Program-made: the position numbers and the translations under genes | Part shown: positions 16,286-42,357 of the stretch, one piece after another | Layout: each line of letters starts with the position of its first letter | How positions within the stretch are numbered: position 1 is the first letter of the stretch | Notes under the pieces: model-generated | What the model was told of the DNA's origin: nothing | Database searches by the model: none | The model's input: the letters and a program-made list of their open reading frames with translations, nothing else | NCBI GenBank assembly: GCA_020740775.1 | Contig: JAHEWK010000005.1 | Span: 3,224,001 to 3,288,000, forward strand | Source of the DNA: Ilyonectria destructans | Taxonomy: Eukaryota; Ascomycota; Sordariomycetes; Hypocreales; Nectriaceae | Length of the DNA: 64,000 bases | Reading direction: 5' to 3'

Positions 16286-17313
16286 TGAGGCCAGATACCG
16301 ATAGAGCCGTTTATAGTATATAACATTTTTCTTCAACTTTGTACCATTAAAAATAATGGCGGGTATCTGAGGCCCTTATTTCAAGAATACATCCTTTCGC
16401 TTAGACCAAACTCGAGCACATCAAGACCCAGTCCATCACCAGAGCTGAGTGGCCGAGCAACGTGACGGCTGAACATCTGAAGAAAGAAGACACAACCCAA
16501 CCACTGTAAAGACGCCGAAGTAAAACACCACGTGAAATGAACATACTAGCTAGAGCATGCGATCCGTCGCCGTCGAAGGAGACTTGTCCTGCACTCCTCC
16601 AAGGAGGAAACAGTGAGTCTCTAGCATGGCTTCGGACCGCGAAACCCTTTGTCACTCAACAGCCCCCACATGCCGGTAATATTCTCCATCGTAACCTAGG
16701 TCGGAGTAGCCATATTGATTGGAAATGACACTGAGCCCAACGCGATAAGATACATGGTCAGTCAACTACAGAGAATGGAATTCAGTGTGCAAGAATCGAT
16801 CATTGGGCGGTGGCCGTATCCCAGTTCGCACATACACTCATTTACAATCTGCGCTTGGAAGGTTCCGGTCATGAATGGAGTATCACTATGCCGTTTACTT
16901 ATGTGGGAACGGAGGCGCAAATCCGAAAATGGAAATACTCCGTGAGCTCAGGCATTGACAGGGCAAAAATCGCCCTCACTTCATCCCAAACCTTCGGCCT
17001 AACGCAGCCAATTAAGATCAGCCTTCCACACCTTAAGTTACTCCGACTCTCCGCACCGGTTCCTACATATGGAAACGTGGATACACCTGTTCAACTTACC
17101 ACGAAGAAAAGTCGGCCGGAATATTACCGCAAAGGGAATTGGTCCTACTCTCCACATGTACGCCGCCCGGGTCATGGGCGCTACAATGCACCCGCAGTTG
17201 GTAGAGTCGATGCCGGCATAAATACACGCACGTCATGGAGAAGTTCGGCATAATCTGCCTGTGAGCCCCATGGATCATCTTGGAAGGCCACATTGTGATA
17301 ATACGAACACAGC
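16286..17313. promoter_or_regulatory. Upstream region of the amidohydrolase, with CCCCACA at 16664-16670
   Basis: About 1 kb without a convincing gene; the ORF at 16810-17253 has no recognisable domain. CCCCACA occurs at 16664-16670, about 650 bases before the amidohydrolase start. That is farther than in the other cluster promoters, so its role here is doubtful. Confidence 0.4.
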
Positions 17314-19024
17314 ATGTCATCATCTAAACTTCTCTTGAAAGGGGGAACATTGTTGGTACATGACCAAAACAAGCGGGTAGTTTGCCGACATGCAGATTTG
17401 CTTATCCATGATGATCGTATTCACGAGATTGGCGATCATATCCAACCTGCTGAAGGCGTCATCGTAATAGATTGCACAGACACAATCGTCTCTCCAGGTT
17501 TCATCGACACTCACAGACATCAGTGGCAATCACAACAGAAAGGTCTTCACGCAGACCACATTCTGTTGGATTACTACCACTCAGGTATGACTTAAACACA
17601 AGTCGCTAACTCATATCTTCGTTAGCTCACACGCCTTGCTTAGGAAACTTGGCGAGCTCGCACTATGCACCAGAAGATGCGTTTTGGGGGGTGCTGAGTA
17701 GTTCTCTTGAGGCTATTGACGCCGGGACAACCACAGTGGTCGACCACGCGCACGTCAACTACTCTGCTGAACATTGTAGGGTGCCCAACCCTTTTTCTTA
17801 TATGTAACCCCATTATCTGACTTCTCCCTTAGCCAAAGAGTCCATCCGCGGCACTGTTGCTTCTGGCATTCGTTGCATCTTTTGCTATTGTGCACACCCT
17901 CGAGTCGAGACTTGGCACCCCGAGTTAAGGATGGACAATAACCCCCTCGCTGAGGGGGTGATGGACACTTTCCGAGAATTAGCGGCGATGCAGCCTTTCG
18001 GTCCAAGGGGTAGAGTGCGGCTTGGATTCGCGATGGATGCAATGTTCGTGCGACCGCAAGTCTTAAAAGACACCTTCGCCGAGGTTCGCAAGCTTGGTGC
18101 TCACTTGATCACCTCTCACGTCACCCGTGGGAGTATGATGGATGGTAAGTCCATCCAGCCACCCAGTTCCCCATTATGCAACCCGCATTCATGCCGGTGC
18201 ATTTTCTAATAAAAGGTTTAATATTTTAACTAGCTTCGCTGTCTCCGGTAACTATCATGCACGAAAATAAGCTTCTGGGGCCTGATATCTTACTATCCCA
18301 TGCGAACCATATATCGGCCGACGAGTTGCGCCATATTGAAACCTCAGGGGCACATTTATCAAGTACGCCGCTGTCTGAAATGCAGATGGGCCATGGACAC
18401 CCTGTATGTCTACAACCGGAGTTCCTGAAACTGTCCTCCTTGGGGACAGACTCCTGTAGCATCTGCTCTTCATCCATTCCGCGGCAAATGGAGATTGCAC
18501 TACAAGTCACACGCGCACGAAGATCGGAGGAGCAGTTGCGGAATCGTAAGTGGGACGGTACCATCGGACCCAGTGTGGAGGAGGTTTATAACCTCGGAAC
18601 AATACTTGGAGCCCAAGCCGTCGGCCTAGAGGATGAAATTGGTAGTCTGGCAGTGGGTAAGAAGGCGGATATTGTTGTGTTCAACAGCAAGACCCCGGCC
18701 ATGTTAGCTGCAGCTGATTGCAACCCCGTTGCAGCTATTGTGCTCCATAGCTCGGTGCAAGATGTCCAGACTGTCATTGTCGATGGTGTAATCCGTAAGG
18801 AAAACACATTACTCAACAAAATTGTCATTCCTCAAGATATCGCACAAAAAGAAGAGATGGTCGCCAACACATCAGAGCCACTTCAGTGGGATGAGGTGGC
18901 GAGAGAAGTGGAGAAAAGTCGCAAAAGGCTCAAGGAAATCCGGGGCGTTGTTAACGAGGATGCCGCTAGAAATGGACTTATCCGTTCTTTCGTAGCAGCG
19001 ATGAAACTTGCGTCTGACCATTGA
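17314..19024 (+). CDS. Metal-dependent amidohydrolase (cytosine deaminase / TRZ-ATZ type)
   Basis: Exons 17314..17584, 17644..17775, 17833..18144, 18234..19024; 501 aa. Metal ligands are visible: H67-x-H69 in F-I-D-T-H-R-H, a His in L-L-S-H-A-N-H, and the catalytic Asp in L-G-T-D-S. Family members hydrolyse C-N or C-Cl bonds of (hetero)cyclic or aromatic compounds (deaminases, dechlorinases) and are cytosolic. It is the leftmost gene of the proposed catabolic cluster and points rightward, converging on HIBADH-1. The C-terminal helix (about residues 440-500) is charged. Substrate unknown; assignment to the superfamily is firm. Confidence 0.88.
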
Positions 19025-19602: not shown

Positions 19603-20759
19603 TTATGGACTTTCCTCATTGGTAATGTGCAAATATACGGACGAGCCATCCCGATTCTGGAAGGGACGAATAGAAATAGTTAGCAAGCAGATAAACATTT
19701 GCGCAACAGGGACAGATGGCTTCGGACTTACAATGCATCGTGGATCGACAGATGCCTTCTCGAAAACCCCAAGCGCAGCCTCAGCCATTGTTGGATGGAT
19801 ATTGACCGATCTTGCGGCTTCAATTCCCAACGAAATATCTTTGATGAACATTTGGGTCTTGAATCCAAGCCTCCAGTCATTACTGCTCGGCGCATGGGGC
19901 ACCACTCCTGGGACAGGACACACGTTATCCCCCATAAAGGTTTGGCCGGTTGAGTTGTGGATTATTCGGTGAAGCAGCTTTGGATCTATTCCAGACTTGG
20001 TCCCGATGGCCATGGCTTCCGCCACTAGCAACAGCACCGAACAGGAGATGTAGTTGTTGCTGATCTTTGCGGCGAGGCCAGCTCCCACATTACCACACCA
20101 GAAGAACTTTTCTGGATCACCCATCATGGCAAGAATTAGACTGAGATTATTCACATCTCCAGTACTGGGCTCGGGATGCCCAATCATGAACGACAGGGTC
20201 CCTTTTTCGGCTGCTGGAACCCCGCCCTGAACATGTCAGATGTACAAGTTGAGAGTGATTGGGAAAGGAACTAACTCACAGAAACAGGGGCATCAACATA
20301 GACACCCCGGCCAGCATCTTGAATTGCTTTTGCAACTTTGCGTGCGGTTGGCGTGTCTATCGTGCTGCACTCGATGAGGAGTCGATGGCTCGCATTGGAG
20401 GCGGCAACAATTCCATCATTGGCGTCAAGATACACCTTCTCGACCTCTCTAGGTCCAGGCACCATGGAAATGACCGTTCCAGCGTCTTCAGCAGCTTCGC
20501 GAGGCGAGTCCACAATCTTAACAGGCCCGAAGCCGGAAAATTCATCCACAAACTTCACACAGGCTGGTTTGAAGATGTCAAAAACGTAAAGGGTATCGCT
20601 CTTGGGCATTTTCCTTCGGATATTAGCTGCCATCGGGTAGCCGATGGCACCGAGGCCTCGTTCATGTTAGCAGGAATCGATTTTAGGGAGTGAACTCGTT
20701 GGGCTTGGAATGTCGGTTGCGAGGAAGCACATACCTAAGAATGCGATATTGGAACTCAT
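19603..20759 (-). CDS. 3-hydroxyisobutyrate-dehydrogenase-like enzyme (HIBADH-1)
   Basis: Exons on the minus strand: 20759..20735, 20656..20280, 20226..19732, 19656..19603; 316 aa. The short first exon supplies the Rossmann start I-A-F-L-G-L-G-A-I-G. Later come the substrate motif D-A-P-V-S-G-G and the catalytic Lys in A-A-K-I-S-N-N. The last small exon is supported by similarity to the C-terminus of the paralogue at 28835. The family oxidises beta-hydroxy acids with NAD(P)+. Both copies share the insertion C-P-V-P-G-V-V-P. Two CCCCACA sites stand 117 and 151 bases upstream. Specific substrate unknown. Confidence 0.87.
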
Positions 20760-21310
20760 CGTGTTTTCTTAGCTCTGTATCTTCGTCGTAGATCCGAATT
20801 TCGTCGTGAATAGTGGTACGGTTGAGTGAGAGGGCGGCATGTGGACGGAACTGGTCAGAAGTTTATCAAATCCTTCCCCACACTGCTCGATCAAACACTC
20901 CTCACATTTCCCCACATCACCCCATGAAAAGGCCCCCGCCATACTCAAGGAAGAACACACCGGCGAGTGGAAAACACCGGTTAGACCAAGATTATTACAT
21001 GGACATTTGATGAATCGCGGAGACGGTTTCTTGACGGGCCTCTCCCGCTTGGCTGTGCTGAGTGCCGACTTGGAGAGAATAATTACACCTGATCATAAAT
21101 ATATTTGTTGTCAACATAGCCTCTCAAAGTAGATTGAACAATACGAGCCAATGTACACTTGGAATGTCTAAAAATGGCCGGAACCCCATGATGCATATGA
21201 ATTACACTATGAACAGGACTATATGACAGCTGCGCCAGGCATACCACAATTCCGACTTCGATACCACATTCATGTCCTCCAAGCGTTTCATTGGAACGTA
21301 TTGGGTATAA
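20760..21310 (-). promoter_or_regulatory. HIBADH-1 promoter with two CCCCACA sites
   Basis: CCCCACA at 20876-20882 and 20910-20916, 28 bases apart between the last base of one and the first of the next plus one, both on the plus strand. The nearest start codon is HIBADH-1 (20759, minus); the other neighbour, the reductase gene, ends here. The remaining sequence to 21310 shows nothing recognisable. Confidence 0.5.
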
Positions 21311-23581
21311 TCAGGACCAGACATCCTCCTTCAAGATATTGTCAGCCTCATGATCACATTTAAATCCGTAGCACGATCAAACTAGATCAATGCGCGGCAG
21401 GATAACATGCTAATACATGTTGACACAGCATCAACGCAGCATTCCAAGACGCGAACATACCTGGTATTGACTTGAAGATCTCATGTTCTTCACAATCTCC
21501 TCTGCAGCTTCTCTCGATAGACGGCGGTGCTCCTGAATGAGTTGTGCGAGAACATTGTGGACTTGTTTGGCCATATTTGCAGCATCGCCACAAACATAAA
21601 AGTAGGCTCCCTGCTGAAGGAGACCGTTGACTTCGACTCCTCGCTCCTTGATGCGGTCCTGGACATAGACTTTCTGCAGGCTTTCTCTCGAGAAAGCTGT
21701 GACAAGCTCAAATTTGTCGCCGAGACTTTTTGCGTATGACTACGGGAGTGATGCGTGTCAGTTTCCAGTGCTTAGAGTAAAGTCAGGGCAGAAATATGTT
21801 ACCTCAAAGTCCGACTGGTAGATAAAATCTTCGGTTGATTTCCTGCATCCAAAAAATAAAATCGCCTTGCCAACTTGCACACCGTCTTCGGCTTGCTTTG
21901 CCCTTTCCTGCAAGAAAGCACGGAATGGTGCAACACCAGTTCCAGGGCCTACCATTATGATTGGGCTTGACGGATCCGAGGGCAGTTTAAAATTAGACTG
22001 ACGTATGTGGACAGGCACACGAATTCCCTCATATTTGTTCCTCGGTCCTGTTATGTCGTATGTTGGGCCCAAAGCTTCCGCACTGGGAGTTGGACTCTGT
22101 CTTTGATTGAGGGAGAGTAAATAGTTTGTGGCAACCCCATAAAATGGTTTCTCTTGGCAATCAATTGCTTTTTTTTCGACAACGGTGGTAATGGAAGCCA
22201 ACGTGGGCTGGACCAGAGATGATGATGAGATGGAGTAGTACCGAGGCTGCAATTTCGTCAGACCCTCAATCCATGCAGAGAACGGTATGTTGGTCCATTT
22301 ATTGCCATTGCTAACCATGTCTAGCAATTGCGAGATGGTATAAAAGTGACCGTCCGTCTGCTTGTGAAAGTATTCTTTATCACTGCCCAGCTTTTTCATC
22401 TCAGCTTTGGTCCTCTCGTCGGGGGAGAAGACAGCAAGGTTCGAAACGAATTGACGGGAGACAGGGCCGCAAATCTCAAGGTGGTAGCGGACGATAGTGT
22501 CGTATGTCGTTGGAGTAGGGAAGAACACTCTGGTGGTTGGGTCTAAGGAATCAACACCAATGACAGTATTCTTCTTTTCCGTGAGACCGAGAATATCGAG
22601 ACATCGATCAACCTCTCCGCTGGGGTTCATAGGCCAGATTGCAATGTGATCGCCAGTCTGGTACGTGAGGCCAAATTTGCTAAGATCAACTTCGATATGC
22701 AGGCAGTTCCGGTCTTCGACACAAAATAGCTCTCGAGATCCCGCTATTGGAGCAATGAATGGGTTGTGCACATCAAAGAGGCCTTGAGCAGTATTTTCCA
22801 GTTGTGATTTGGTCAGTTCTCCAAGATAAACCTCGGAGGAGTGAGGCGTGAGCTCTGTCCTCTCCCTGATTTTGAACGATGACTCGAAAACAACCTTGCG
22901 CTCGGTGAGGCCCATTTTCGTGGTTAGAGCTGCCCACATAGGTTCCTTCCAGGCGAGGAAATCCTCCTCGGTCGTCCCAGCACCATCATCGCCCTCGCCT
23001 GCTTCGCCAATTCTAGACGCACCCAACCTTTCCAGGGCTTTGTCTACATTGCGAACCACCGCATTATAGTGCTCATAGGTGTTGTTTCCGAGGCCAAATG
23101 CAACGTACGCAAGGTTTTGTAACGGCGGGGTGTTGCTTTCAGAGAAAGAAACATCATCCCCAGTAATAAACTCGTAGAATTGTACGGCATTATCGGTTGG
23201 TTCGCCTTCTCCATAAGTGGCGAGAACGAACATGACGATTTTGTTCTCAGGAATAGTATCCAGAGTGTCGAAGTCGTACTCGTCGAGATCGGCAATCATC
23301 GTTTCGAGCCCGAACCTGCTCTTGCCCTCCTTAGCCAACTTCGAGGCGTAGTCCTCGGCAGTGCCAGTCTGTGATCCATAGAATATGATGCAACTCTTGC
23401 CAGACTGGTCCAGTGCGTCTTTGATGTTCCTTGTCTTGCCTTCTTCGCCACCGCCGACACTTGCGTGGCCATTTGCGAGGAATTTTGTGTTCGCAGGCGA
23501 GGCTTTCCGTTTTTTAAAGTATGTAGTGGTCGCCAAGAGGATTATTGAAAGCAAAATTATTTCCAAATAATCCAGAGCCAT
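21311..23581 (-). CDS. NADPH-cytochrome P450 reductase
   Basis: Exons on the minus strand: 23581..21803, 21739..21461, 21328..21311; 691 aa. An N-terminal anchor (L-D-Y-L-E-I then a hydrophobic run, residues 3-20) precedes an FMN domain (Y-G-S-Q-T-G-T-A and A-T-Y-G-E-G-E-P-T-D). Next come the FAD motif R-Y-Y-S-I-S-S-S, the NADPH motif G-P-G-T-G-V-A-P-F-R-A-F, C-G-D-A and the terminal E-D-V-W-S with the stacking Trp. The tiny last exon encodes just that end. It passes electrons from NADPH to microsomal P450s. The start at 23581 fits family N-termini; the frame is open 21 codons further up to an ATG at 23644. It shares a divergent promoter with the SDR gene. A reductase copy inside a cluster is unusual. 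Confidence 0.93.
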
Positions 23582-23962
23582 TGTGCCGCCAAGAATGGTG
23601 ATTTTGCGGTCGGCGGCTGCACACAGGATGGAATTGAATGACAAATACCCAAAACCTGCGAATAGCGAGCTATCTTTACATAGAAAGAAGTCAGTAGAGT
23701 ATCACGAGCAAAAGGAGGGACAATCCAAGCTTGGGTTTGTGTGGGGGTGTCAATAACATCGAAACATGACGATGGCATACTGAGGCCTTTGTGGAGGACA
23801 TTGTGGAGTAGATTGTGTTCAAGACTGCAACGCAGGGTGGGGATGCGGTGCAAAGCTACCTCCACAGATACAGATCGAAAGATCTACTTCAGGCACTGTT
23901 GAATCAAGGAGCTTCATCCGGTATGCACATCAATTTTGTCAGTGCAATCGCCAAGCAACATC
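23582..23962. promoter_or_regulatory. Divergent promoter of reductase and SDR with TGTGGGG at 23740-23746
   Basis: One TGTGGGG sits 159 bases from the reductase start and 217 bases from the SDR start, so one site may serve both genes. Two near matches (TGTGGAG) follow within 75 bases. Confidence 0.5.
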
Positions 23963-24993
23963 ATGTCAAACTATATTATCAACGAAGCCGAATTCCGAGC
24001 CCTCAGCGGCAAGGTTATTATGGTTACTGGAGGGGCAACAGGGATCGGTCGAGCAATTGTCGATCTTGCGCATCGTACTCGTTCCCCATTCTACTTCCAC
24101 GATGCAGCTAATGTCTTCCAGGTCATGGTGCGAAAGTTGCGGTCTGTGATGTCAACGAGGTCAAAGGAAAGGAGATGGAACAAGAACTCGGAGAGTAAGT
24201 TGAATTGTTTATTCCCAGCCCAAGTTGCATGCACTCATCTGACTATGGCGACCTTCAGGAATTTGCTTTTCCAAAAGTGCGACGTAAGCAACTGGAGTAG
24301 CGTGCTGAGCTTCTTCAAAAACACGTACAACGTCCTTGGCCCAATTGATGCAGTGGTTTCCAATGCAGCCATCAACGTGGTTGAATCTCTTGACGACGAT
24401 ATCGATACAGCTACAGGCGAACTACAGGCGCCAGACCTGTCGGTGTTAAACGTCAATGCAGTTGGCACCTGGTATGTCACCAAATGCGCAATTCACTTCT
24501 TCAAAAAGCATCCGGAGACAAGATCCCAGCTGGTTCTCTTTGGTTCCGTAGCGAGTCTTTTTGACACACCGCCGTTATACACGTATTGTGCCAGCAAGGC
24601 CGCCGTGTTGGGATTGATGCGCGCGCTCCGGACTCAGTTGCCCAAAGACAACATTACAGTCAACATGATTGCACCGTGGATGACGAGTGAGATACCCCAA
24701 CTTCATGTTTCCTCATTATCCCAGAGCATAATATTGACAGCACTGCAGTCACACCCATGGTCACTGATCACATCCGCAAAGTATGGGGGGAGTTACCGGC
24801 AAACTCTCCTCTGGATGTGGCTAAAGCGAGCTTGTTGCCAGTCTTACGGCCCGAAGTGAATGGGAAGTCTTTTCTCATCAACGGCGGACATATAACCGAG
24901 GTCGAGGACAAATTAAACGAGACGCAGCCGGTATGGTTGGGGGACGAGCTTGACAAGCAAATGCGTGAGGGTCAGCGTAGGCTCATCCCATAG
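23963..24993 (+). CDS. Short-chain dehydrogenase/reductase (classical SDR)
   Basis: Exons 23963..24074, 24122..24194, 24259..24686, 24749..24993; 285 aa. Cofactor motif T-G-G-A-T-G-I-G, structural S-N-A-A (N-N-A-G variant), catalytic Ser in L-F-G-S-V-A-S, and Y-T-Y-C-A-S-K giving Y-x-x-x-K. The segment after exon 1, V-A-V-C-D-V, has the acidic residue at the end of beta-2 that favours NAD(H). It would oxidise or reduce an alcohol/ketone of the pathway. It is transcribed away from the reductase and toward the CMD-like gene. Substrate unknown. Confidence 0.88.
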
Positions 24994-25396
24994 TCGGGAA
25001 TTGAATTATATTTACCCCACATTAGTGGTGTCGTTTTCTCAAGTTTGTACGTCCCTTCACCTGAATTGCTTCGCGTAGTTATTAGCCGGCAAGGAAGACG
25101 GTGTGGGGGAAACAGGCGGGGTACACGAATGGGCGGGATGTGGACTCCAGATGTAGACTCCAGATGTGGGGATGACATAAGGACTTGAGAAGACAAGGAC
25201 GAGCGGGAGAGAAAAGGGACACCACAGGTATTCCCTTTGTGGACATTCTCGCTTCAACGATTCTCATCTTCTTTCTACGTATTCAATCTAGTAAAAATAA
25301 GCTCACGCTTAACACCAAATCCAAAGGTTTGATCTCGTCATCTACACTACACAAAAGCGCAAACACAAGCCTAACATCGAACAGCCACTCAATAAG
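24994..25396 (+). promoter_or_regulatory. Promoter of the CMD-like gene with three motif copies
   Basis: CCCCACA at 25015-25021 and TGTGGGG at 25102-25108 and 25165-25171, that is 226 to 382 bases before the start codon at 25397. Near 25139-25166 the phrase TG(T/G)(A/G)GACTCCAGATGT is repeated in tandem. Confidence 0.5.
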
Positions 25397-25828
25397 ATGC
25401 CTGCCTCAGAAAAAGAAGTTGCCGAGGCTCACAAAATCCTCTTTGACAAGGGTCTTCAGGTTCGCTATGAAGTCGCAGGGAAGGAATACGTCGATAAGTC
25501 TCTGGCAAATGGGGACTCATCATTCGCCCGTCCCATGCAAGAGCTTGTGACTGAAGCCTGCTGGGGATTCGTGTGGTCACGTCCTGGGCTGGAGCGTAAG
25601 CAGCGCAGTCTCCTAAATGTAGCCATGCTTTGCGCTATGCACCGGTCGCAGGAGCTGGCTGTGCACGTCAGAGGGGCCGTCAATAACGGCGCCAGTGAGG
25701 TTGAGATAAGGGAGACTTTGTTACAGGCTAGTATCTATGCCGGTATGCCTGTTGGCTTGGAGGGTTTCAGAGTCGCCTCCAAGGTTCTGGATGAGATGAA
25801 GAGTGAAGGCACATTAAAATCAGAGTAA
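25397..25828 (+). CDS. Carboxymuconolactone-decarboxylase-like protein (AhpD fold)
   Basis: Single exon, 143 aa, usual length for the family. It has the helix pair with W-G-F-V-W, then R-x-x-L-L-N-V-A-M-L and H-V-R-G-A-V-N-N-G, and E-I-R-E-T-L-L-Q-A-S-I-Y-A-G-M-P, typical of PcaC-type proteins. PcaC decarboxylates gamma-carboxymuconolactone in aromatic catabolism; AhpD relatives are Cys-based peroxidase partners. The C-x-x-C of AhpD is absent, so the decarboxylase or isomerase type is likelier. Its presence next to a ring-cleaving dioxygenase supports an aromatic-degradation role. Confidence 0.88.
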   Translation: MPASEKEVAEAHKILFDKGLQVRYEVAGKEYVDKSLANGDSSFARPMQELVTEACWGFVWSRPGLERKQRSLLNVAMLCAMHRSQELAVHVRGAVNNGASEVEIRETLLQASIYAGMPVGLEGFRVASKVLDEMKSEGTLKSE

Positions 25829-26483: not shown

Positions 26484-26667
26484 CCCAGTATGCGACCGTA
26501 CAATGACGCGAAATTGCCACTGAACCGTAAGCGCATCATTCGTACAACTGTTCATAACTACAGTCTCATTTCATATATCATAACGATCCGGGTAGAACCA
26601 TTCGGTTGCTTAATTCAGAATTGGCCAAAACAATGCTCTTGTTCCAGTGCATGCTAGCTACTGTATC

Positions 26668-28512: not shown

Positions 28513-28834
28513 TGCTGGTGAGTCGAGTATGAATTCTTTGCTCAACCACAGTTTGAACCGGATGGGTTTGACTCCATCCTCCATATATGGCCACTACCAG
28601 ATATGCAGACTTGGCCCCCAGAACAAAACCCCACATGCAGGCGTACCCCCCGTGTGGGCAAGCTTCTCCAAACCACCACCATGGGGGAGCATTTAGCAAG
28701 CGCTTTAGAAAGCATACTAGTACATTTTCATCCTCGTGGACAATTAGAGTGGCACCTACTCGAATTGAAACGATGAATGGTCAATCTCCACGAAGAAGTA
28801 GAAGTGTATTGGGCTAGGCAATCTAAGGTCTAAC
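28513..28834 (-). promoter_or_regulatory. P450-2 promoter with CCCCACA (28629-28635) facing GTGTGGG (28651-28657)
   Basis: The two half-sites are inverted with respect to each other, 15 bases apart; the second is a partial copy (TGTGGGC). They stand 117-145 bases upstream of the P450-2 start. Confidence 0.5.
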
Positions 28835-29865: not shown

Positions 29866-30103
29866 GATGCAATCGCTCACAGGCAAGTTGCAGTAAATAT
29901 TTGACAGGAGAAGTATTTCTATAGGGTAGTTGGATCGTTTCGCCATATCCAAGTGCCCACGAGTAACCATTTTCCTACTTCTAGTTATGCTCGTCATGTG
30001 GGGGTACACCTCTCCACATGGGTATGTGGAGGAGACAAGACAAGACACCAGCTCAAGCCATGCATCATCATTGAAAGAATAGCAAATAGTATTGATTGTG
30101 GGT
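29866..30103 (-). promoter_or_regulatory. HIBADH-2 promoter with TGTGGGG at 29997-30003
   Basis: The site stands 132 bases upstream of the start, followed by a partial inverted copy CCACA at 30013-30017. Confidence 0.5.
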
Positions 30104-31015
30104 TTAGAGGGTAGACGGAAATAAACGTTCCTTATTCTGTTCGTACCAAATAGCATCATGAGCACTTATCAATTCCACATTTCCCAATTCAGCCAGCTCT
30201 CGCAAATAGCCGATAAACGTCCCTGCAGCATCGGGGCTGACGTGAATACAGCAGCTCATTCCGCAAGCATCTTTCCAAGTCGCAATATCTCGCTCGCCAG
30301 TGAGTAGGCGTTGGTCATGATACGAGTCTCCGCACAGGCAGACCCATCTGTCAGGTCCAACCCTACAAAGCAGGTTGATATGGCCCGGAAGGTGGCCAGG
30401 GGAATTGAGCACAAAAGCTGACCCGTCACCAAAAACATCGATAAAGGAGAATTTCCCCAACGGCTTCCAACTATACTCGCCCTCCTCTCCGATGTTTGGA
30501 AGCTCCAAGACGCGATCTCGAGGTAGGAGATCTGGAGTGAAGTTCTGGTGACTCGCCGTGGCGCCAAGGCCATGGTCGAGTAAATGCTGTGTTCCAGGTC
30601 CAACAATAAACGTGGCCTTGGAAAAATGCTCCGGATCTCCGTGATGATCGTAGTGAACATGGCTTAATATGACCATATCGATGTTCGAGGGGCTAGTACC
30701 TCCTTCGCGAAGGGCGTGCGCGACACCTGGGCCGATGAGAAATGGCTTTCTGTTTGACAAGTGCTGTTGTTGGGCGTCCGTGTAATTGCTGATGGAAGAC
30801 CGCAGCCCGAGATCAAACATGATTCGCGTACGATTTCCTTTGTAATTTGGGTGAGTGATGAAAAACGCCAGCGACGGGACTGTTTGGCAAGCGTCTGGAT
30901 TGGCAGGGTCGACGAAATATCGCTCGGGCAATGTAATACTGCCACCGAGAATGGGAGATACAGTGACGAACTTTTGCCCGCTCGCGCTAGCTGGTAGAAT
31001 AGCCGGTTCAGCCAT
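30104..31015 (-). CDS. Metallo-beta-lactamase-fold hydrolase (lactonase-like)
   Basis: Intronless, 303 aa. The zinc motif H-V-H-Y-D-H-H-G-D (about residue 117) gives HxHxDH; a further His lies in S-P-G-H-L-P-G-H and the bridging Asp in C-G-D-S-Y-H. This spacing matches MBL-fold lactonases of the quorum-quenching type and fungal lactam/lactone-opening enzymes. It would hydrolyse a lactone or lactam ring in the cytosol; no signal peptide. It shares a divergent promoter with the HGD-like gene, suggesting that the two steps are expressed together. Confidence 0.88.
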   Translation of the reverse strand: MAEPAILPASASGQKFVTVSPILGGSITLPERYFVDPANPDACQTVPSLAFFITHPNYKGNRTRIMFDLGLRSSISNYTDAQQQHLSNRKPFLIGPGVAHALREGGTSPSNIDMVILSHVHYDHHGDPEHFSKATFIVGPGTQHLLDHGLGATASHQNFTPDLLPRDRVLELPNIGEEGEYSWKPLGKFSFIDVFGDGSAFVLNSPGHLPGHINLLCRVGPDRWVCLCGDSYHDQRLLTGERDIATWKDACGMSCCIHVSPDAAGTFIGYLRELAELGNVELISAHDAIWYEQNKERLFPSTL

Positions 31016-31313
31016 TGCAGTAGTCTATGGTGGGAGGTGTCGACAATCTGCAGTCCAAAAAGTCAAATATCGTACTATTTCTATCACCTTCAAGATGACG
31101 CATAAGACGGTACACGGCGAGAAAAAAGGAAAGAGACGTAAGATGGCGACCTTTTCTCTCAACCCCATTACCCCATCGACCTTGGCATTTCTCTCTGCTG
31201 CGCCTGTGGGGGCTACCCCACAACGAAGAAGCTCTTAAGACGGCTTCTACTGCACTCGACGCTAGCTTTCACCAACTCAACAAGCCACAGTGAGCTAGCA
31301 AACAGAAAACACC
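31016..31313. promoter_or_regulatory. Divergent MBL/HGD promoter with perfect palindrome TGTGGGG-N4-CCCCACA
   Basis: At 31205-31222 the cluster 7-mer occurs as a perfect inverted pair with a 4-base spacer (GCTA). It is 92 bases from the HGD-like start and 190 from the MBL start. A symmetric site suits a dimeric Zn2Cys6 regulator. Confidence 0.65.
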
Positions 31314-32818
31314 ATGGCATCGACAAGTCTCACTCCCAAGGATTTCCAAGACGCCTTCCACTGGGCGGCAACCCAGAAGGATGGCGCCATTCCTGCCTTT
31401 GACACGCGCCCGAATGATCCTTACAAGTACCAGCCGGGCTTCAACAATCATTTCGAGTCTGAAGCTATCCCTGGCACTATCCCAAAGGGCCAAAATAGCC
31501 CGAGGTTCATTCGATTCGGCCTCTACGCCGAGCAGATGACAGCCTCAGCATTTGTCGCTCCTCGAAACGTCAATAAGAAGGCCTGGTTGTATCGATCTCG
31601 ACCGGCAGTTGCTCACCAAGGATTTGTAAGTACATCATAGTACCATGGCCTGAGAAATCGTTTGTAGCTGACCGATACTCTTAGACCGAACTTCCCGACA
31701 ACTTGGACACGGAGGCCACCTTCCTCCCAATCAATCCTCGAGTTCATATTTCCCCTACCCAGCTCGCTTGGAAGCCATACCCAATCCCCGAAGGTCACGA
31801 CGTGGACTTCGTTGATGGATTGAAGACTGTGGCCGGATCCGGCGATCCTACGCTTCGCGAGGGGCTAGCAACCCATGTGTTCTTGTGCAACAAAAGCATG
31901 ACCAAGAAAGCCTTTGTCAACTCGGACGGCGACTTCCTCATCGTACCTCAACAAGGTGCTTTGGACATTCAGACTGAGTTCGGCTTCATATACGTTCAGC
32001 CGGGGGAGATTTGCGTTATCCAGCGCGGTCAACGCTTCAAAGTCAACATCGAAGGCCCTACTCGCGGCTATATCCTCGAAATATGGGGATCCAACTGGGA
32101 GCTTCCTGAGCTAGGTCCGTTGGGCGCAAACGGACTGGCCAACGCTCGTGACTTCCTCCATCCTGTTGCTGCGTATGAGGTCACCAAAGACGATCCATGG
32201 AGTATTGTCTACAAGCTCGGGGGCAAGTTTTTCAAGAGCACGCAAAATCATTGCCCATTCGACGTTATTGCTTGGCACGGAAACTACGTCCCCTATAAAT
32301 ACGATCTCACCAAGTTTGTTAATGTCGGTTCCATCTCGGTTGATCACATCGACCCCTCAATCTTTTGCGTTCTCACAGCCAAATCTCGCGACCCGGCTGC
32401 GCCGCTGGCCGACTTTCTTATATTCTCTCCGCGATGGGACGTTGCATCCCACACCTACCGACCCCCGTATTATCACAGGAATTGTGCCTCTGAGCTCATG
32501 GGACTCATTTACGGAGATTATGGGGGCCGATCGGACGAGTTTCAGCCTGGAAGTGTTTCATTCGAATGTGGATTCGTCCCTCACGGTGTAGCCTACGAAG
32601 AGTTCTCTGCTGCTTCTAAGGAGGACCCTCCCCTCAGGCAGATATCGCTTGGGTCTGTTGCCTTCATGTTTGAGAGCAGTCGCGCTTTCACTATCACCGA
32701 TTGGGCTTGGAATAGTGCACAGAAGCATGAGCACGATCCTAAGATGTGGGACAATTTGGTTGACAACTTTTCCAATTTTAAAGACGAGGTGGATCAAATT
32801 CTAAAGACGATCAATTAA
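31314..32818 (+). CDS. Homogentisate 1,2-dioxygenase-like enzyme, divergent paralogue
   Basis: Exons 31314..31625 and 31685..32818; 481 aa. The Fe(II) ligands of homogentisate dioxygenase are kept with exact spacing: H368 (Y-Y-H-R-N), E374 (S-E-L-M-G) and H404 (V-P-H-G). The active-site His of I-A-W-H-G-N-Y is also present. Differences include P-H-G-V-A instead of the usual P-H-G-P-D and A-S-H-T-Y before the ligand block. Homogentisate dioxygenase opens the ring to maleylacetoacetate in tyrosine and phenylacetate breakdown. No fumarylacetoacetase or maleylacetoacetate isomerase gene is nearby, so a different dihydroxy-aromatic substrate is plausible. Cytosolic. Confidence 0.92.
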
Positions 32819-33329: not shown

Positions 33330-35141
33330 TTACGACAGCTTTCGTAGTCTCAAGTCAAGATACATGTCCGCCTGATAAGAAAACCACTGCGACTTAACGA
33401 CAAACGGTCTTTGTTTATTCACAAATTGCGCATCGTATCGCCGAACAAAGCCAGCGATGAATTTGTGGATCTCAACGAGAGCGAGATTGCGTCCGACGCA
33501 AGTTCGAGCACCATAACCGAACTGTGTTTCATAAAGAATTAGCTTCAAAATGACCCCAGACAGACCCAAGACAGGCAATTACCGTAACATTGAACTTGTC
33601 CATTTCTCGGATCTGGGCTGGGTCGCTCCCCTTGCTAGCCATCCACCGTGTAGGCCTCCACTCGTCTGCGTCAGCCCCGAAGACGGACCTGTCTCTGTTC
33701 TGTGCGATTGGGCTCATGCTTATTGTCGCACCCGATGGGATGTAGTGACCAGCAATTCGGACTCCGTTCGCCGGTGCTTGGCGGGGCAATTGCCACAAGA
33801 TACTTGGGTGCAATCTCAAAGCTTCTTTGACGCAAGCGTTTAAGAAGGTGAGCTTCTCTGCAACCAAGTATGGAATACCACTATACCCAGGCGCGAAACC
33901 GCCTTCAGCATATGCCTTGTCGACTTCCTCACGAACCTGAAGATAGTCCCCAGGGTGGAGGACCAATTGGGCCAGGACAGCACGAATACCGATTGATGTT
34001 GTATCAGCACCGGCGCCAATAATGTTTCCGGTTTCAGCCAGGATAGATGGAATGGTAGCTTTGCTACCATCCGGCTCTTTCATGGCGATGTAGTGGTCAA
34101 GCATATCTGCCTTCCGTTCAGTGCCTTCTGGCTCACTCAGCCGCTTCATGAGTTGGCCAACCATCCACTTGCCGAATGTGTCGAAAGAGCTTCCACTCTG
34201 CATTAATCGTTCCACAACCGACAGGATTGTTTGGGTCACAGGATTGTTGATCCATATCATCTGCCCAGGGACGTAGCCCATACTGGCCATCTGGTAGAAA
34301 CCAGCGTGGATAGAACGAATGATGCTCATGACGTCTTGTTCTTGCTCAATGAAACCAATGGGCGAGCCCAAGGCCAGCTTCCCAACAACATCAAAAGCAA
34401 AATAATTGGTCCAGTTGCTCATGTTGACAGGCTTACCCTCTTGAGCATATTTGTCGAGCTTTTTCCAGACAGCATCCGCGATTTGCTGGACCTCTGGCTC
34501 TAACGAAAGGATGGTTGACATGGTATATGCGCTGGCCACTCGTTTCCTAAGAAAGGAATGCTCTGCTGGATTCGTAGAGTGGAAGAACTAGATGGAAGCT
34601 CGATATCAGCACCTTATCGTTCTGAATGGGTAGCTGGGCCAATCTTACTGAGTTGTTAAGGCCGGGAATCATCCAAACGTCATACCATGATGTCTAAACA
34701 AAAACGTGTTGGGTTAGCAAAGCTATCTTCCGGCAATTCGAAGTGCTCGGGCCTTGGTGGGTGGCATAGTCGTCTCTGTACCTTTCGCGTCCCTTTGCCA
34801 TGTCCAAAAACCTCGGTAAGACCGATCTTGTCCACGATGCTGATCTCGTTTGGAGAAACCCGGACCACCGGTCCATACTGTCGGTGTAGGTCTAAGATGT
34901 CTTGATGCCAGTTTCCTTTTGCGTACTTGGTTGTTCTCCACAATTCGGTGAACTTGGCAGGGAACGGACCGGGAATGCGGCGAAGTGGATGGAACAGGAT
35001 GCGATAAAAATAAACAAGTAGCAGGATAGTGCCTGGAACTAGAAATAAAAGCCATGGCTTGCATAGCAGCTCAGTACGCAAGGTTTTGATATCTTTTAGA
35101 AGAGCCTGCATTGTGAATTCGGAATAAGAAGATAGTGCCAT
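33330..35141 (-). CDS. Cytochrome P450 (P450-3), pisatin-demethylase-like type
   Basis: Exons on the minus strand: 35141..34782, 34693..34649, 34587..33583, 33521..33330; 533 aa. A membrane anchor (about 30-52) precedes R-I-P-G-P-F-P. Then follow I-helix I-G-A-G-A-D-T-T-S, ExxR as K-E-A-L-R, and haem loop F-G-Y-G-A-R-T-C-V-G. A 45-base second exon encodes T-S-W-Y onward and is supported by the matching segment in P450-1. The intron before this segment sits at the same place in both genes, so P450-1 and P450-3 are related. Monooxygenase of unknown substrate; TGTGGGG lies 142 bases upstream. Confidence 0.9.
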
Positions 35142-35634
35142 ATCAATAGTAGTGGTAGACTTGATCAATTCTAATAGCGCCAACTAGCTTTCATTCATAT
35201 TATGCCTATTTACTGCTTCCCTTTTGAGATATTCTGGAGTTTCTAAGCTACATTGTCGCCTGCAAGATCTGACCCTTCGTTATGTGGGGTTGGGAACAAA
35301 GGTAGGTGGAGTGGGGTATTTTGTAAGACCGACTCTCATGATCTTGTGAGGAGCTGGCCGCTGAGATCCACAACTAGGACTAGTTGAGACCCAAATATCA
35401 AGTCATCTGACCTATTCTAATCAGAATAGCCAATGGCAGTACGCGTATGCTGCCTAAAATAACGCTAAAAACGCCTTTAGGAATGTGGGGTATTGAGGTG
35501 TGAGTCCGCACATCTTGAGCACGAATGTGGTACTTGGTCTCGCTCCTAACGTGGTGGGGTTGGTTCAGTCTAACTGTTTCTTGATATTGGACTTCGCCTA
35601 ATGCTGGAACATCGCTGTGACCTTTCGAGCTTGG
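35142..35634 (-). promoter_or_regulatory. P450-3 promoter with TGTGGGG at 35283-35289 and 35484-35490
   Basis: Two full motifs, plus weaker copies GTGGGG near 35311 and 35554. The other neighbour (HET gene) ends at 35635, so these sites most probably serve P450-3. Confidence 0.5.
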
Positions 35635-37595
35635 TCAGACCAGGTGCAATGATTCCCAGTTTGAGCCATCTCCAACCGCCTCTCCATTCATTAGACCTGT
35701 GACGTATGCGTCTCCAACAAAGGAATAAACGGCATGGTCATCCTCAGTCCCAGCACTCATTTGCTCGCTCAGCACATATGGCACCTTGCCGCCAGCGAGC
35801 ACCACCAATAGATCGCCGGGTTGAGACTCTGCAGGAACACAGCCAATGAGACCTTTCGTGGTGCGCATAAACCTTCGGGCTGCCAAGGTAGACAGCAGCG
35901 TACTGCCGAAAACTTCTACATCAGCAGTTGGCAGATCTAGTTCGCGACTTGCGTGTGATTCGACCAGACGACTCCATCGCAGGTACCGCTCGTAGTCAAC
36001 GGTCGGATCAGCATGCTCGTAAACACTGACACCGTGGTGGATATGAATGGATAGGTTTCCGGTAAGAGCCTGCCAGAACGCAATCTCTTCAGCACTAGCC
36101 TCGTCGAAGGACTTCGGGGGTAGGTGAGGCAGCCCCGACAATGACCGCGCCTCATCGACAATGGTCTTCGTACGCGCTGCGTCTTCAACCTTCGAAAAAG
36201 AGGCGATCATGCCCACCGCTTCGATTCGGTCAACAATAATTCCCTTTGAAATCGCCTGAGAGGAAGACACCATGTGGAAATCGGCCTCGGCTCCTGCCGC
36301 TGTGTTGTAGTACATCAGCGTCAATGGGCGCCCCTTGCATCGGAAGAGGGTGATGGGAGTCAACAAGATATTCCAGTCGGGAATATACGAAGGGAGTCCC
36401 GAAACTGAGTTTTCGCCGCGCAGTACATGAGTTAGGACGTCCAGTGACTTGGTTTGGTGTATCTGCTCCAGAGCAAGTTGGACAAACAGTTCCTGCGCCT
36501 GGATCGTATAGTCGGGTTGGATTTGGCTTCCCGCACCTCTGAAACCCATGGCAAGAATTCCGTAAACCCTGTCACGGGGATCTGAACATCCCCGCTGTCG
36601 GTACATGGACAGAGTCTCCAGGACGTCGTTGCGATTCTTATACCTCCTCAAGCTGTCGAGATCATCCATGCGGCATAGTGCGAAGAACAGGTTGGTGTCA
36701 TACGTTCGGCTCTCGTCAAGGATGTACGCATGCATTCCACAGCACGCCATTGCTGCGTGTTTTCTGAGGTGACAAAACGCATCTTGGACGCGCTGGCCAT
36801 CAATGAGGGTGTCCCCGTATTGGAGTATGACATTCTTTGACAACACGTACTCCTGGACTGTCCATACTCGGTAGAACCACGGGGAGTCGAAGAATCTGAT
36901 GAGGTTGTCTCTGAGAATTGGTGACGACGCATCATGGCCTTGTACCTACTTTCTGTTAATATGACTCCACGAGTATGAAGCTAGCCTCGTTGGCGTAAAG
37001 AACGGCCAACAGCATGTTTTTCTAGCGATTAGACCGATAATTTGATCAAGCTATGCTCTTTGAAACAGCTGGAGGGACTTTCAGTGCGCTGGTTCCTACT
37101 AACCTTCAAGTGTGGCTCAAGTGATGGTACAAAGTGGTATTCACCTTGCTCAGCGCAGAGCTCTAGGTAGTCAAATGCAAGATCGTGACCGTCCCATTCT
37201 TGTCCAAGAAAGACCACGACTCCTTCAGCGTCTTGGTATATGCTACCCATCAAGCTAACTTGGCGCGAGCGTTCATCGATATCGTCCTGATTGATGCACA
37301 CGGCATCAACCCATAGAATGCGATCTGCATCTCGTCGTCGTAATCTGCACAAAGCTTGGAAGAGGTTGCTGGAAATAGCAACATCAACGCCTTCTAAGTT
37401 CACAGTATTCAGGTGAGTGGAGTCCCCCCAAACATATGACAGGGCTTCGTAGCATGGGCTGTCGGCTAGGGAGACGGTCGTGAAGCTGCATCGGATTGGA
37501 GCGTCGCTGTCTGTAGCGGGTTTCAAGTGTAAAAGACGAATCTGGCTATCTTGAAGAAGTGAATATGACGGGTAGATACCCCTGTGTGCGTCCAT
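35635..37595 (-). CDS. HET (heterokaryon incompatibility) domain protein, HET-1
   Basis: Exons on the minus strand: 37595..37104 and 36945..35635; about 600 aa. HET-domain blocks: E-A-L-S-Y-V-W-G-D, I-L-W-V-D-A-V-C-I-N-Q, then S-P-W-F-Y-R-V-W-T-V-Q-E at the start of exon 2, which fixes the 158-base intron's acceptor. HET domains trigger cell death in non-self recognition or act as immune-like sensors in fungi. The gene lies inside the catabolic cluster between P450-3 and the transporter, and TGTGGGG (37614-37620) stands 19 bases before its start. The intron is longer than others here, so a small exon may be missing. Confidence 0.8.
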
Positions 37596-38061
37596 TAAAT
37601 CTTGCCACCACGCTGTGGGGAGCTTGGATCTAGATTTGACAAGGTGCTGAAGTCGCAGCTATGCCGTGAGCTTGCGTGCATTTCTGCTCAAACCCCGCGA
37701 TATTCCGGGGAAACGATTTTGCGGAGTACATCACGCCCCCCAACAGATCCGGCGAAGGTAGATAAATGCGCCTGGCGTACACCGAATCATAGCCAACGAC
37801 TTCTCTTTATTTACAGCACGGGTCGGGTACCCCAAACTCACGAGGCTAGGGGTTAGTGCTTCCAACTTGAGCTTGGGTATTCGGTCAAACTACAATGTAC
37901 GTGTTTCAATATTCACATTGTATAAGCTTAAATGCGGGAAACTAGTTATTAATGTAATGACACTTCTCCTAAAAATATCCATTGACTCTCTCCTTATTCT
38001 CTTCCATGTACTTCTTCCACCTCTAGAACGCGCCCCCAAGTGCGCCTCATTCTAAGGTGGC
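37596..38061. other. Intergenic, with TGTGGGG at 37614-37620
   Basis: Holds one motif copy next to the HET-1 start; otherwise nothing recognisable. Confidence 0.5.
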
Positions 38062-39702
38062 CTACATGCCTTGATGAGTGTTGATGCCGATCTTTTCAAG
38101 AACGTTGTGAGTATGCCAGAAGCTCCTATACCGCTTGCCAAAGACGTAAACAATTAATGTTGTCGCCACAAGTCCGAGACTGATGCCACCGAATGTGAAA
38201 AAGGGAGCAATGGGTCCTGCAGACGCCGTCCAGTTGTTGACAAAGTAGCTGTAGCCGTAAAACAAGAAGTTTTTGAACATGACGTTGGCGATAAAAATCT
38301 CATTGCTCATTCCACCGAAAGCGTCAATGGCATAAGTTGAACAGGGTGCAATGATGAAGGAAGTGCCGAAAAGAGTTAATCCCCACATAAAGTCGATAGC
38401 ATAGATGTTGCCCTGGTTTTGTGAAAGAGCACCAAAGCCAAACAGACTAGCTCCACATATCAGACCAAATACGCATGTAACAAGGCGAAACTCGGGCTCG
38501 TATACATTTTTATTTTTCTTGGTGAGCCAGATTGTGAGGGGATCCATGACGAGACCAACGGCGATGCTGCCAATCGCACCACCAATGAACGGGCCAACCG
38601 ACATGTATCCAACAGCCGCCGCTGAAAGGAGATAGGGCGGTGGTGAAAAGAGCTGAGCGATAACATAGGCCGCCGCAACAAAGAATGAGGTAATTGTTCC
38701 AGTAATAACAATAGTCCAGAGTGCGGCCAGATTTGCACAACAGACGAAAGGTGCGATAACCAGTGTGATGAAATTGTCGTCGCTGTATGAACCGTTGAAA
38801 AGAGCCATTTCTTGAAGAAATGACTTCTTTAGAGGTACGTCAGCTGACTCAATCTCCACATCTTCCACTCTGTAAGAATCTCCTTCTTCCTTGGCTGGTG
38901 TATCATCTTTCTCTTTGGCTGCGGTCTGCTCCTGGATAAAACGATCGTGGCGGATGTACGACGTCTCAGGTACAAATAACAGTAAAAGGATGATCTGGAA
39001 CCCAAGGCAGGCATTCAAGATGTGGAAGAGATAATGCCAGCCCAAGCTAAATGTGATTTTTCCAGCCACAACGGAGCTCAGGTTGGAAACACACGTCAAC
39101 GTAAAGGCCATGACTGAGGTCCAAAGACCGCGCTCATGTACAAAGAAGACATCTCCAACAACCGTATAGATAAGTGATTCGTAAGCGGCCAGAGAGAGGC
39201 CCTGGACTACTCGAGCGGCCAAAAGAGTATTGTATGTGTTGCTGACGGAGCCGATGATGGTGCCAACAAGGCAGGCGACGGAGGAAAAGATGAAGACAGG
39301 CCGCTTGCCATATTTCCGGGAAAAGGCAGACAGAATTGGACCTGACGCTCCAGCGACAAGGAGCTGATAGCCTGAGAGGACGGTGATGTCTCCGATGGGG
39401 CGGTTGAACTGTAGAGAAAGAACAAACAAGCTGGCATTGAGCAACGGTCCCGTGCAGCACGCGCAGAGGCAGCAGCCGTATACCAAGATGCAAATTGCAA
39501 GGACTTTCTTGTAGTAGGGCCAGTTCAATGGATCGTTGGGGTCGTCGGATGGGCGAGGAGTGAGGATGATGTCTTTGTGTTTGCCAGTACCGTGCTTAGT
39601 GGGCACAGAATCACGAATCGGGTGCGATTCTTCGTCCGCAAGGATGACTGTTCCAGGGACATGTTGGAGGGGCGATCGATGTTCGAGGACTCCCAAACCC
39701 AT
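38062..39702 (-). CDS. MFS transporter, DHA1-like
   Basis: Intronless, 546 aa. The N-terminus has D-D-P-N-D-P-L-N-W-P, typical of fungal drug:H+ antiporter-1 proteins. About 12 hydrophobic segments follow in two halves, with a charged central loop rich in K/E/D around residues 250-295 and the loop-2-3 motif S-R-K-Y-G-K-R-P. Plasma-membrane import or export of substrate, product or toxic intermediates; direction unknown. Motif TGTGGGG lies 186 bases upstream. Confidence 0.92.
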   Translation of the reverse strand: MGLGVLEHRSPLQHVPGTVILADEESHPIRDSVPTKHGTGKHKDIILTPRPSDDPNDPLNWPYYKKVLAICILVYGCCLCACCTGPLLNASLFVLSLQFNRPIGDITVLSGYQLLVAGASGPILSAFSRKYGKRPVFIFSSVACLVGTIIGSVSNTYNTLLAARVVQGLSLAAYESLIYTVVGDVFFVHERGLWTSVMAFTLTCVSNLSSVVAGKITFSLGWHYLFHILNACLGFQIILLLLFVPETSYIRHDRFIQEQTAAKEKDDTPAKEEGDSYRVEDVEIESADVPLKKSFLQEMALFNGSYSDDNFITLVIAPFVCCANLAALWTIVITGTITSFFVAAAYVIAQLFSPPPYLLSAAAVGYMSVGPFIGGAIGSIAVGLVMDPLTIWLTKKNKNVYEPEFRLVTCVFGLICGASLFGFGALSQNQGNIYAIDFMWGLTLFGTSFIIAPCSTYAIDAFGGMSNEIFIANVMFKNFLFYGYSYFVNNWTASAGPIAPFFTFGGISLGLVATTLIVYVFGKRYRSFWHTHNVLEKIGINTHQGM

Positions 39703-40568
39703 CGTGAATGAGTATTAATTGAGGTAAGCGAGGACAATACAAGATTGGCCGAGTCGATGTTGAGAGGAGGGCTGGACTGATTCCTTTTTACGCAGCTTGG
39801 ATAGCATTTATACATGTCGGCTTGACAAGCGCACTTCATGACTTGACTAGCCTAGTTCCCTGACTCGGACTGTGATTCCGTAGCTGTTGTGGGGTAGATG
39901 TAGTTAATGCATTGGATCTGGCTTCAATTTTAGAACTAGATCGCATAAAGCAATCGTAGTACTCGAAAGCGAACGCGGCCAGGGAATTGCCGCGAGAGCT
40001 GTTCGTACCAGTGACCAAGTGCCGACAACATGACAAGATGCGCCACAATCGACATCAATGGAATCTGGGGTAGCATTGTCTTGCGCAGTACTTCGTGGGG
40101 TAGTGGAGTATTCTTCCCCACACGCCAAAGTCGCGATGACTTCCCAATCCTCCGGTCCTACCGGCATGCAGATGTAACTACAAGGGATCTATCTAGCGTC
40201 TTTAATCCACCCCCTCAATCACAAAGGCTGAGAATGAAAACAGCATGTGATACAAGCGGGTCTAGTAATAATCACACAAAAACTAGGCAGATGTACACAG
40301 GCTTTTCTCTGCGAGGGGAAAGAAGCTGCCTCCTGTCTGTGGGGTCGTACGGCATTTGGGCTCAGGTGGGGTTACACCACATTCACCATATTCGCAACTG
40401 GACCCCTACAGCCCTCCACAACTAGCCGATAGAGCGTTTAATTACTGCCTAGTCCCGATTCCAGACTTGGAATTAATTCTTGAAAGGATAAAATTGCCTG
40501 GATTCAATTCGTCGCTCTGAGCCGCCAGCCTACATCCCGATACCATCAATCTTATCAGACAAGCAACA
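39703..40568. promoter_or_regulatory. Divergent promoter of MFS and carboxylesterase with three TGTGGGG motifs
   Basis: TGTGGGG at 39888-39894 (186 from the MFS start) and 40338-40344 (225 from the esterase start). In the middle CGTGGGG (40094-40100) faces CCCCACA (40116-40122), an imperfect inverted pair with 15 bases between. GGTGGGG follows near 40365. Confidence 0.6.

Positions 40569-42357
<1,789 letters not shown>

Follow-up and report, generated by a model that had tools for sequence, protein, structure and literature searches.

The 64,000-nucleotide stretch of Ilyonectria destructans DNA analysed here (the window; contig JAHEWK010000005.1, positions 3,224,001 to 3,288,000, with places on this contig outside the window given as C45) contains a cluster of enzyme and transporter genes between 16.3 and 40.6 kb. 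Judged by its genes, the cluster would encode a pathway for hydroxylating an aromatic compound and cleaving its ring. A sequence-only reading of the window had pointed to the 7-mer TGTGGGG (CCCCACA on the other strand) as a promoter word marking one regulon. We describe this word, the clusters in which it recurs and the regulators that are candidates for binding it.

Enzyme and transporter genes were identified by a Pfam scan of selected reading frames, and start codons were located for 13 genes; a HET-domain gene embedded in the cluster stands outside that set. At the left end, an amidohydrolase gene (Amidohydro_1; approximately 17314..19024, plus strand, start located) is preceded by TGTGGGG at 16664..16670 and TGTGGAG at 17150..17156, both on the minus strand and 644 and 158 bases upstream of the start, respectively. 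Beta-hydroxyacid dehydrogenase gene 1 (NAD_binding_11; approximately 19603..20759, minus strand) has two TGTGGGG copies on the minus strand (20876 and 20910, spanning 20876..20916), 117 and 151 bases upstream. Four TGTGGRG words (23740, 23790, 23802 and 23860; 23740..23866) occupy the divergent promoter between a NADPH-cytochrome P450 reductase gene (approximately 21387..23581, minus strand) and a short-chain dehydrogenase gene (23963..24993, plus strand), the latter having a paralogue in a cluster on contig C4 (51% over 143 amino acids). Three TGTGGGG copies (25015, 25102 and 25165; 25015..25171) stand upstream of a carboxymuconolactone decarboxylase (CMD) family gene (25397..25828, plus strand). 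The interval between this gene and the next appears by eye to be rich in CTATAGC words (window 25950-26450).

Cytochrome P450 gene 1 (approximately 26600..28512, minus strand) contains coding 7-mers at 26858 and 28058 and has TGTGGGG on the minus strand 117 bases upstream (28629..28635). Beta-hydroxyacid dehydrogenase gene 2 (28835..29865, minus strand) is preceded, at 132-160 bases, by a triplet of TGTGGGG and TGTGGAG words (29997 plus, 30012 minus, 30025 plus; 29997..30031). A metallo-beta-lactamase (MBL) fold gene (30104..31015, minus strand) and a homogentisate 1,2-dioxygenase (HGD) family gene (HgmA_N, HgmA_C; 31314..32818, plus strand) diverge from a promoter that carries the pair TGTGGGG-GCTA-CCCCACA (31205..31222), whose two arms are perfectly inverted about a spacer of 4 bases. 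Upstream of cytochrome P450 gene 2 (approximately 33390..35141, minus strand), TGTGGGG occurs on the plus strand at distances of 142 and 343 bases (35283 and 35484; 35283..35490). The HET-domain gene (approximately 35635..37658, minus strand) has a copy, 37614, at its 5' end. TGTGGRG is found at 39888, 40116, 40338 and 40414 (39888..40420) between an MFS transporter gene (38062..39702, minus strand; coding copy at 38381) and a carboxylesterase gene (COesterase; approximately 40569..42357, plus strand). A Zn2Cys6 regulator gene (42760..45202, minus strand) follows and, just past the cluster, a second HET-like reading frame was seen by eye (window 45597-47738). Near the left end of the window, three TGTGGGG copies on the minus strand (2691, 2762 and 4580; 2691..4586) form the right end of a neighbouring dense stretch, C45:3200.8-3229 kb, which lies mostly left of the window.

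All 12 enzyme and transporter starts have TGTGGRG at -92 to -226, two divergent gene pairs having sites in common. This bears out the earlier observation that most copies stand 90-230 bases before a start codon and that nearly every promoter has one. The main exon of the HGD gene matches both domains of the family in Pfam (HgmA_N 280 bits, HgmA_C 158 bits). No FAA_hydrolase match was located within the window; the substrate of the HGD-family enzyme, or the step that follows it, may therefore differ.

Each of the 17 coordinates listed by the sequence-only reading is an exact match to TGTGGGG or CCCCACA. Sixteen of them are indeed intergenic, and only copy 37614, at the 5' end of the HET reading frame, is not; three copies had gone unlisted (26858, 28058 and 38381), all coding by the approximate gene spans on which the division into intergenic and coding DNA is based. 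The cluster total is thus 20 with coding copies included. In the 6,979 intergenic bases, the expectation had been put at 0.85 and was recomputed as 0.8-1.1; against the 16 copies observed, 300 dinucleotide shuffles averaged 1.07 and peaked at 4. The whole window, for which at least 23 copies against about 8 had been estimated, contains 24, a number reached by none of 100 dinucleotide shuffles (mean 7.85, sd 2.78, maximum 18). With 6,890 copies in the 71.67 Mb genome, 2.3 are expected per 24.3 kb, and the Poisson probability of 20 in the 24.3-kb cluster is 1e-12. Although the word was chosen after inspection of the data, CCCCACA still ranks first among the 4,433 7-mers of the intergenic DNA (16 versus 0.82 expected, P = 1.8e-15 uncorrected) when compared with 211.5 kb of neighbouring sequence from which the dense neighbouring cluster had been removed. 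This background is itself not enriched (25 TGTGGGG versus 20.3 expected). CCCCACA also ranks first when the whole 24.3 kb is set against all other 240 kb with the dense neighbour kept in (P = 1.6e-8). The promoter word is almost certainly a real cis element, well beyond what chance would produce. Among the top-ranked 8-mers of the cluster intergenic DNA is CTATAGCC.

TGTGGAG, which had escaped notice, is enriched too, with 12 copies in the cluster versus 3.4 expected (P = 2e-4). Among single-letter neighbours of TGTGGGG, it has 12 copies in the cluster and 5 in the rest of the window, the next highest being TGTTGGG (8 and 6) and TGAGGGG (6 and 3); TGCGGGG has 0 and 5. With 20 TGTGGGG and 12 TGTGGAG copies in the cluster, the word is better written TGTGGRG. 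We wondered if such copies might be unselected remnants of promoter duplication or of a repeat scattered through the genome, since elsewhere some inverted pairs are identical to one another, one 26-base form, for example, occurring three times. In 131 sites from six dense stretches, however, no column flanking the word carries more than 0.15 bit (the highest value belongs to an A that precedes the word in 44% of sites), and orientation and spacing of sites vary among the cluster promoters. Since the flanks carry no signal, the word does not belong to some longer repeat copied from site to site. Promoter duplication was rejected on this absence of common flanks, and we regard a repeat origin as barely credible.

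To see where else the word occurs in pairs, the genome was searched and compared with a reversed-word control. Inverted pairs (TGTGGRG N0-30 CYCCACA) number 50 versus 14 in the control, several of them being copies of repeats; everted pairs number 33 versus 23; direct pairs, at 228 versus 194, are hardly commoner. Direct pairs with GGAG were taken from the first 100 of the 228 places, which extend to C11, so that later contigs are undercounted. The 212 pair places listed yield seven groups with at least three pair events, including that of the window, and sequence was analysed for three of the six others; the remaining three groups lie at C4:975-983, C6:286-312 and C6:2094-2107 kb. TGTGGGG occurs 30 times in the 48 kb of C7:1860-1908 kb (4.6 expected), 7 times in the 20 kb of C4:1926-1946 kb (1.9 expected) and 8 times in the 20 kb of C12:288-308 kb (1.9 expected). 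These three stretches were selected by the motif, so that gene content, not density, is the informative fact. Among their selected reading frames, FAD monooxygenases, P450s and short-chain or zinc alcohol dehydrogenases are present in each of the three, FAD_binding_4 oxidases in C7 and C4, and FAA hydrolases in C12. An aromatic-ring hydroxylase, an MFS transporter and esterases were also found, and several of these products resemble the enzymes of the window. The promoter word alone thus led to further clusters of the same class in three of the three stretches examined.

The neighbour on C45, to the left of the window, has 15 TGTGGGG in 28.2 kb versus 2.7 expected; it had been fetched as flank before the motif was read, and its limits were drawn after the copies were seen. 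Its genes encode a catechol-type dioxygenase, FAD-binding proteins, a P450 and an alpha/beta hydrolase. On C5, 10 TGTGGRG words lie within 5 kb, a stretch placed on a known motif group and containing an MFS gene 63-78% identical to that of C7; an FAD monooxygenase match (30% identity) is at C5:470.8 kb and an HgmA_C match containing six stops at C5:451.2 kb. Six of the eight best FAD monooxygenase paralogues (E < 1e-15) are within 25 kb of a pair, the exceptions being C3:137 and C12:5834 kb. TGTGGRG thus marks a set of aromatic-degradation clusters, including sister clusters elsewhere in the genome. Of the proposal of one regulon, the shared cis element is well supported and the single local regulon is not, as the word is dense also in the C45 neighbour and on C7, C4, C12 and C5. 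Enrichment confined to the cluster and a few co-expressed genes was likewise found solely in the wider sense of one functional class. Further dense TGTGGGG pairs were noticed at C1:6627.8-6631.1 kb and C10:448-486 kb, the latter with a C2H2 match at C10:464.6 kb.

Five regulator genes lie in four sister clusters (C45, C7 with two, C4 and C12). Translation of upstream exons revealed two adjacent N-terminal C2H2 fingers in each. The fingers were read directly in the C12 gene and the first C7 gene; finger 2 was read across an intron in C45 and, with a provisional junction, in C4, and finger 1 of the second C7 gene is cut at the edge. Two fingers are also present in the full-length proteins P0001 (C12), P0016 and P0018. 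Helices of finger 1 are RSEHCIR (C45), RAEHLQR (first C7), AEHLHR with the first residue cut (second C7), KTEHLKR (C4) and RAEHLRR (C12); those of finger 2 are RKDLVTR (C45), RADVLQR and RADVLRR (C7), R-x-DVLFR (C4) and RSDVLRR (C12). Regarding the bodies, the C12 regulator shares 37-39% identity over 246 residues with both C7 regulators, which share 49% with each other, and those of C45 and C4 match them more weakly. Fungal_trans (PF04082, cut-off 23 bits) scores 41.2 in C12, 22.3 in each of two C45 pieces, 15.1 in one C7 piece and 13.1 in one C4 piece; three other regulator pieces gave no match to it in Pfam. Deposited P0001 and P0019 both carry PF04082. P0019 (C45:3211.4-3212.1 kb) is without the finger residues that stand just upstream; probably, therefore, the DNA-binding domain has been left out of its gene model. 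In P0017 of Neonectria punicea, FAA-hydrolase domains are joined to a piece 65% identical to the C12 regulator; this is probably a fused gene model, which suggests that a C12-type regulator adjoins a hydrolase gene in that species too.

The sequence-only reading had named the Zn2Cys6 protein at 42760-45202 as partner of the word, that is, as a cluster-specific activator binding TGTGGGG. It is the sole regulator gene recognised within the window by a regular-expression scan, and some Zn2Cys6 proteins bind unusual sites. The proposal is nevertheless unsupported and very improbable, because TGTGGGG lacks a CGG half-site, the cluster promoters show no enrichment of any of 63 CGG/CCG dyad forms (best P 0.08), the 800-base promoter of the Zn2Cys6 gene contains no TGTGGRG, and the regulators of four sister clusters with the same word are of C2H2 type. 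The scan found no Zn2Cys6 pattern in the C7, C4 and C12 stretches, a weak negative as it also missed the intron-split C2H2 fingers there. No two-finger C2H2 regulator gene was found within the window, the nearest being at C45:3211.5-3214.3 kb, about 10-12 kb to the left. The chances that this gene acts on the window cluster appear to us evenly balanced. Farther left, a regulator frame at window -66177 to -64464 (about C45:3157.8-3159.5 kb) has, by eye, a C2H2 finger (RREHLQR), a helix-like RDVLKRH and then a Zn2Cys6-like stretch; TGTGGGG occurs near it at -64288, -63631 and -61203. By its residues, this frame may encode a C2H2 and Zn2Cys6 hybrid with the same predicted site.

Can the fingers account for the word? 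Passages of PMC3607563 assign GTG to the helix RSDALTR and GGG to RSDHLSR, and the assignment of RSDALTR to GTG is repeated in those of PMC3139592. For one GTG subsite, all six helices given in a portion of PMC2634973 combine R at -1 with V at position 3, but their position 6 is N. Judged by these precedents, finger 1, with helix (R/K)-x-E-H-x-x-R, is predicted to read GGG, and finger 2, with helix R-x-D-(V/L)-x-x-R, to read GTG. Since finger 2 contacts the 5' triplet, the predicted site is GTG-GGG, that is, GTGGGG. Finger 1 would read the 3' triplet as either GGG or GAG, a freedom of the R position that is taken by analogy from a yeast protein, Adr1.

Adr1, an activator of non-fermentable carbon use in Saccharomyces cerevisiae, has the recognition helices RQEHLKR and RRDLLIR. 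Like the regulators described here, it has two adjacent C2H2 fingers. Its site, given as TTGGRG in passages of PMC3897899, has the GGRG end and the G/A freedom of TGTGGRG, and its paired sites, TTGGRG N(6-38) CYCCAA in those of PMC2536678, are arranged in the same order as the inverted TGTGGRG pairs. It differs in its 5' triplet (TTG, as opposed to the GTG predicted here), and, unlike Adr1, some of the regulators here combine their fingers with a Fungal_trans body and have their genes in catabolic clusters.

GTGGRG also lies within the sites of another group of C2H2 proteins, and the copies could be CreA/Mig1-type carbon-catabolite-repression sites, the cluster being simply glucose-repressed. 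Finger 2 of CreA has the helix RSDELTR. The consensus of CreA, CRE-1 and Mig1, SYGGRG, covers both GTGGGG and GTGGAG (passages of PMC8844935 and PMC7985698), the form stated for Neurospora CRE-1 is TSYGGGG, and in the C4 stretch TCTGGGG (7), TCCGGGG (5) and TGTGGGG (7) are about equally frequent. In the window cluster, however, enrichment is limited to the GTG forms. GTGGGG (26 in the cluster and 12 elsewhere in the window) and GTGGAG (21 and 17) are the only two of the eight SYGGRG words to stand out, as opposed to GCGGGG (7 and 15), CTGGGG (9 and 21), CCGGGG (6 and 12), CTGGAG (17 and 29), GCGGAG (7 and 21) and CCGGAG (7 and 14). TGCGGGG is absent from the cluster and occurs 40 times in the 211.5 kb flank; C7 has 30 TGTGGGG, 9 TGCGGGG and 6 TCTGGGG. 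SYGGGG as a class is not exceptional either, its 48 occurrences in the cluster being surpassed elsewhere in the 264 kb, where a single 24.3-kb stretch has as many as 62. Moreover, a finger with RSDELNR is listed for GHG in passages of PMC3139592; finger 2 of CreA would be expected to accept C as well as T. Generic CreA sites were rejected as the principal explanation on the SYGGRG word counts, and we hold this explanation to be unlikely. CreA may still repress via the same sites, as an added layer.

Instead, TGTGGRG is probably the operator of an aromatic-catabolism regulon that extends over several related clusters and is bound by a family of two-finger C2H2 activators; likewise, it seems a good deal more plausible that the partner of the word is this family, with its Adr1-like site, than the Zn2Cys6 protein. 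We asked whether regulator loci lie near motif pairs. On C1-C10, for which every pair is listed, P0001 matches 13 loci; 9 of the 13 are within 25 kb of a pair versus 2.2 expected by random placement (P = 1e-4) and, without C7, 7 of 11 versus 1.9 (P = 9e-4). Body matches with E <= 1e-20 outside the four seed loci are at C5:463, C8:727, C4:2318, C7:1607 and C45:588 kb, and a pair is within 25 kb of four of the five; C45:588 kb has none, nor has C14:634 kb, just past the cut (3.7e-20).

Several points weigh against the regulon bound by two-finger activators. In the placement test, sizes of some contigs were estimated and 25 kb is the best of three radii (without C7, 4 of 11 at 15 kb, P = 0.02, and 7 of 11 at 40 kb, P = 0.01). 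A stricter test on all contigs with fully listed pair types places 9 of 42 loci, many of which are finger-only matches, within 25 kb versus 3.6 expected (P = 0.008), 6 within 15 kb (P = 0.02) and 3 within 10 kb (P = 0.19). Word densities on C7, C4 and C12, picked by the motif, and on C5, placed on a known motif group, are not independent evidence; C4 has no bias towards GTG, as its counts given above indicate, and the C45 neighbour shows no excess of TGTGGAG (3 versus 4.0 expected). The leading T of TGTGGRG is not accounted for by the two-finger code, Fungal_trans is above the Pfam cut-off in C12 only, and the body of the C4 regulator matched nothing in the regulator body searches. The solved Adr1 domain 2adr aligns to residues 2-52 of the 52-residue C45 finger query (E = 2.3e-9 and 2.7e-14 in two finger searches) but ranks 22nd and 37th, behind animal zinc fingers (in the second search, among the best 60 of 207 matches), so that any likeness to Adr1 rests on site and helices rather than on E-value. 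Finally, C1-C10 have nine loci for intradiol dioxygenases, and just three of them have a pair within 25 kb, which makes these enzymes unhelpful as a marker class. Genome-wide, intradiol ring-cleavage dioxygenases have 22 matches, some being pieces of one gene.

Binding, activation, the inducer and the pairing of family members with clusters we infer as follows. The activators, whose genes belong to the sister clusters and whose products have two C2H2 fingers at the N-terminus, plus a Fungal_trans body where one was detected, would bind TGTGGRG. An aromatic substrate or breakdown product would presumably activate the regulator, which would then turn on enzymes, reductase and transporter together. 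Fungal catabolic clusters of the qa/qut type have cluster-specific regulators. As in the present case, the regulator is encoded close to the pathway genes, whose promoters share one type of site; the difference is that here several related clusters on different contigs seem to make use of a single site type and a single finger type. To our knowledge, regulators of aromatic degradation in fungi are little characterised. Among the titles listed in a literature search, with subscription papers mostly outside its scope, none described a fungal regulon with TGTGGRG or TGTGGGG. With a candidate regulator family and a specific site predicted for it, the question lends itself to direct testing.

As a tentative and rather doubtful extension, two-finger activators might have multiplied in this root fungus along with the aromatic-catabolism clusters and kept GTGGRG, the clusters being cross-wired into a super-regulon in which CreA competes for the same base pairs. 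If so, each activator site would be a potential CreA site, because GTGGRG is nested in SYGGRG, and activator and repressor would compete. Cross-wiring of this kind would bear on the common control of duplicated clusters and on the combining of activator and CreA input.

The extent to which aromatic pathways have expanded in this genome is seen in HgmA_C, which has 15 matches at 14 loci, an unusual expansion of HGD-type genes, at least some of them perhaps broken. Three of these loci (C4:2337.8, C67:2650.1 and C5:451.2 kb) are less than 10 kb from TGTGGRG pairs. Proteins of Colletotrichum, Clonostachys and Dactylonectria match the HGD exon of the window (31685-32818) at 86-91% identity, a set scattered enough to raise the question of lateral transfer.

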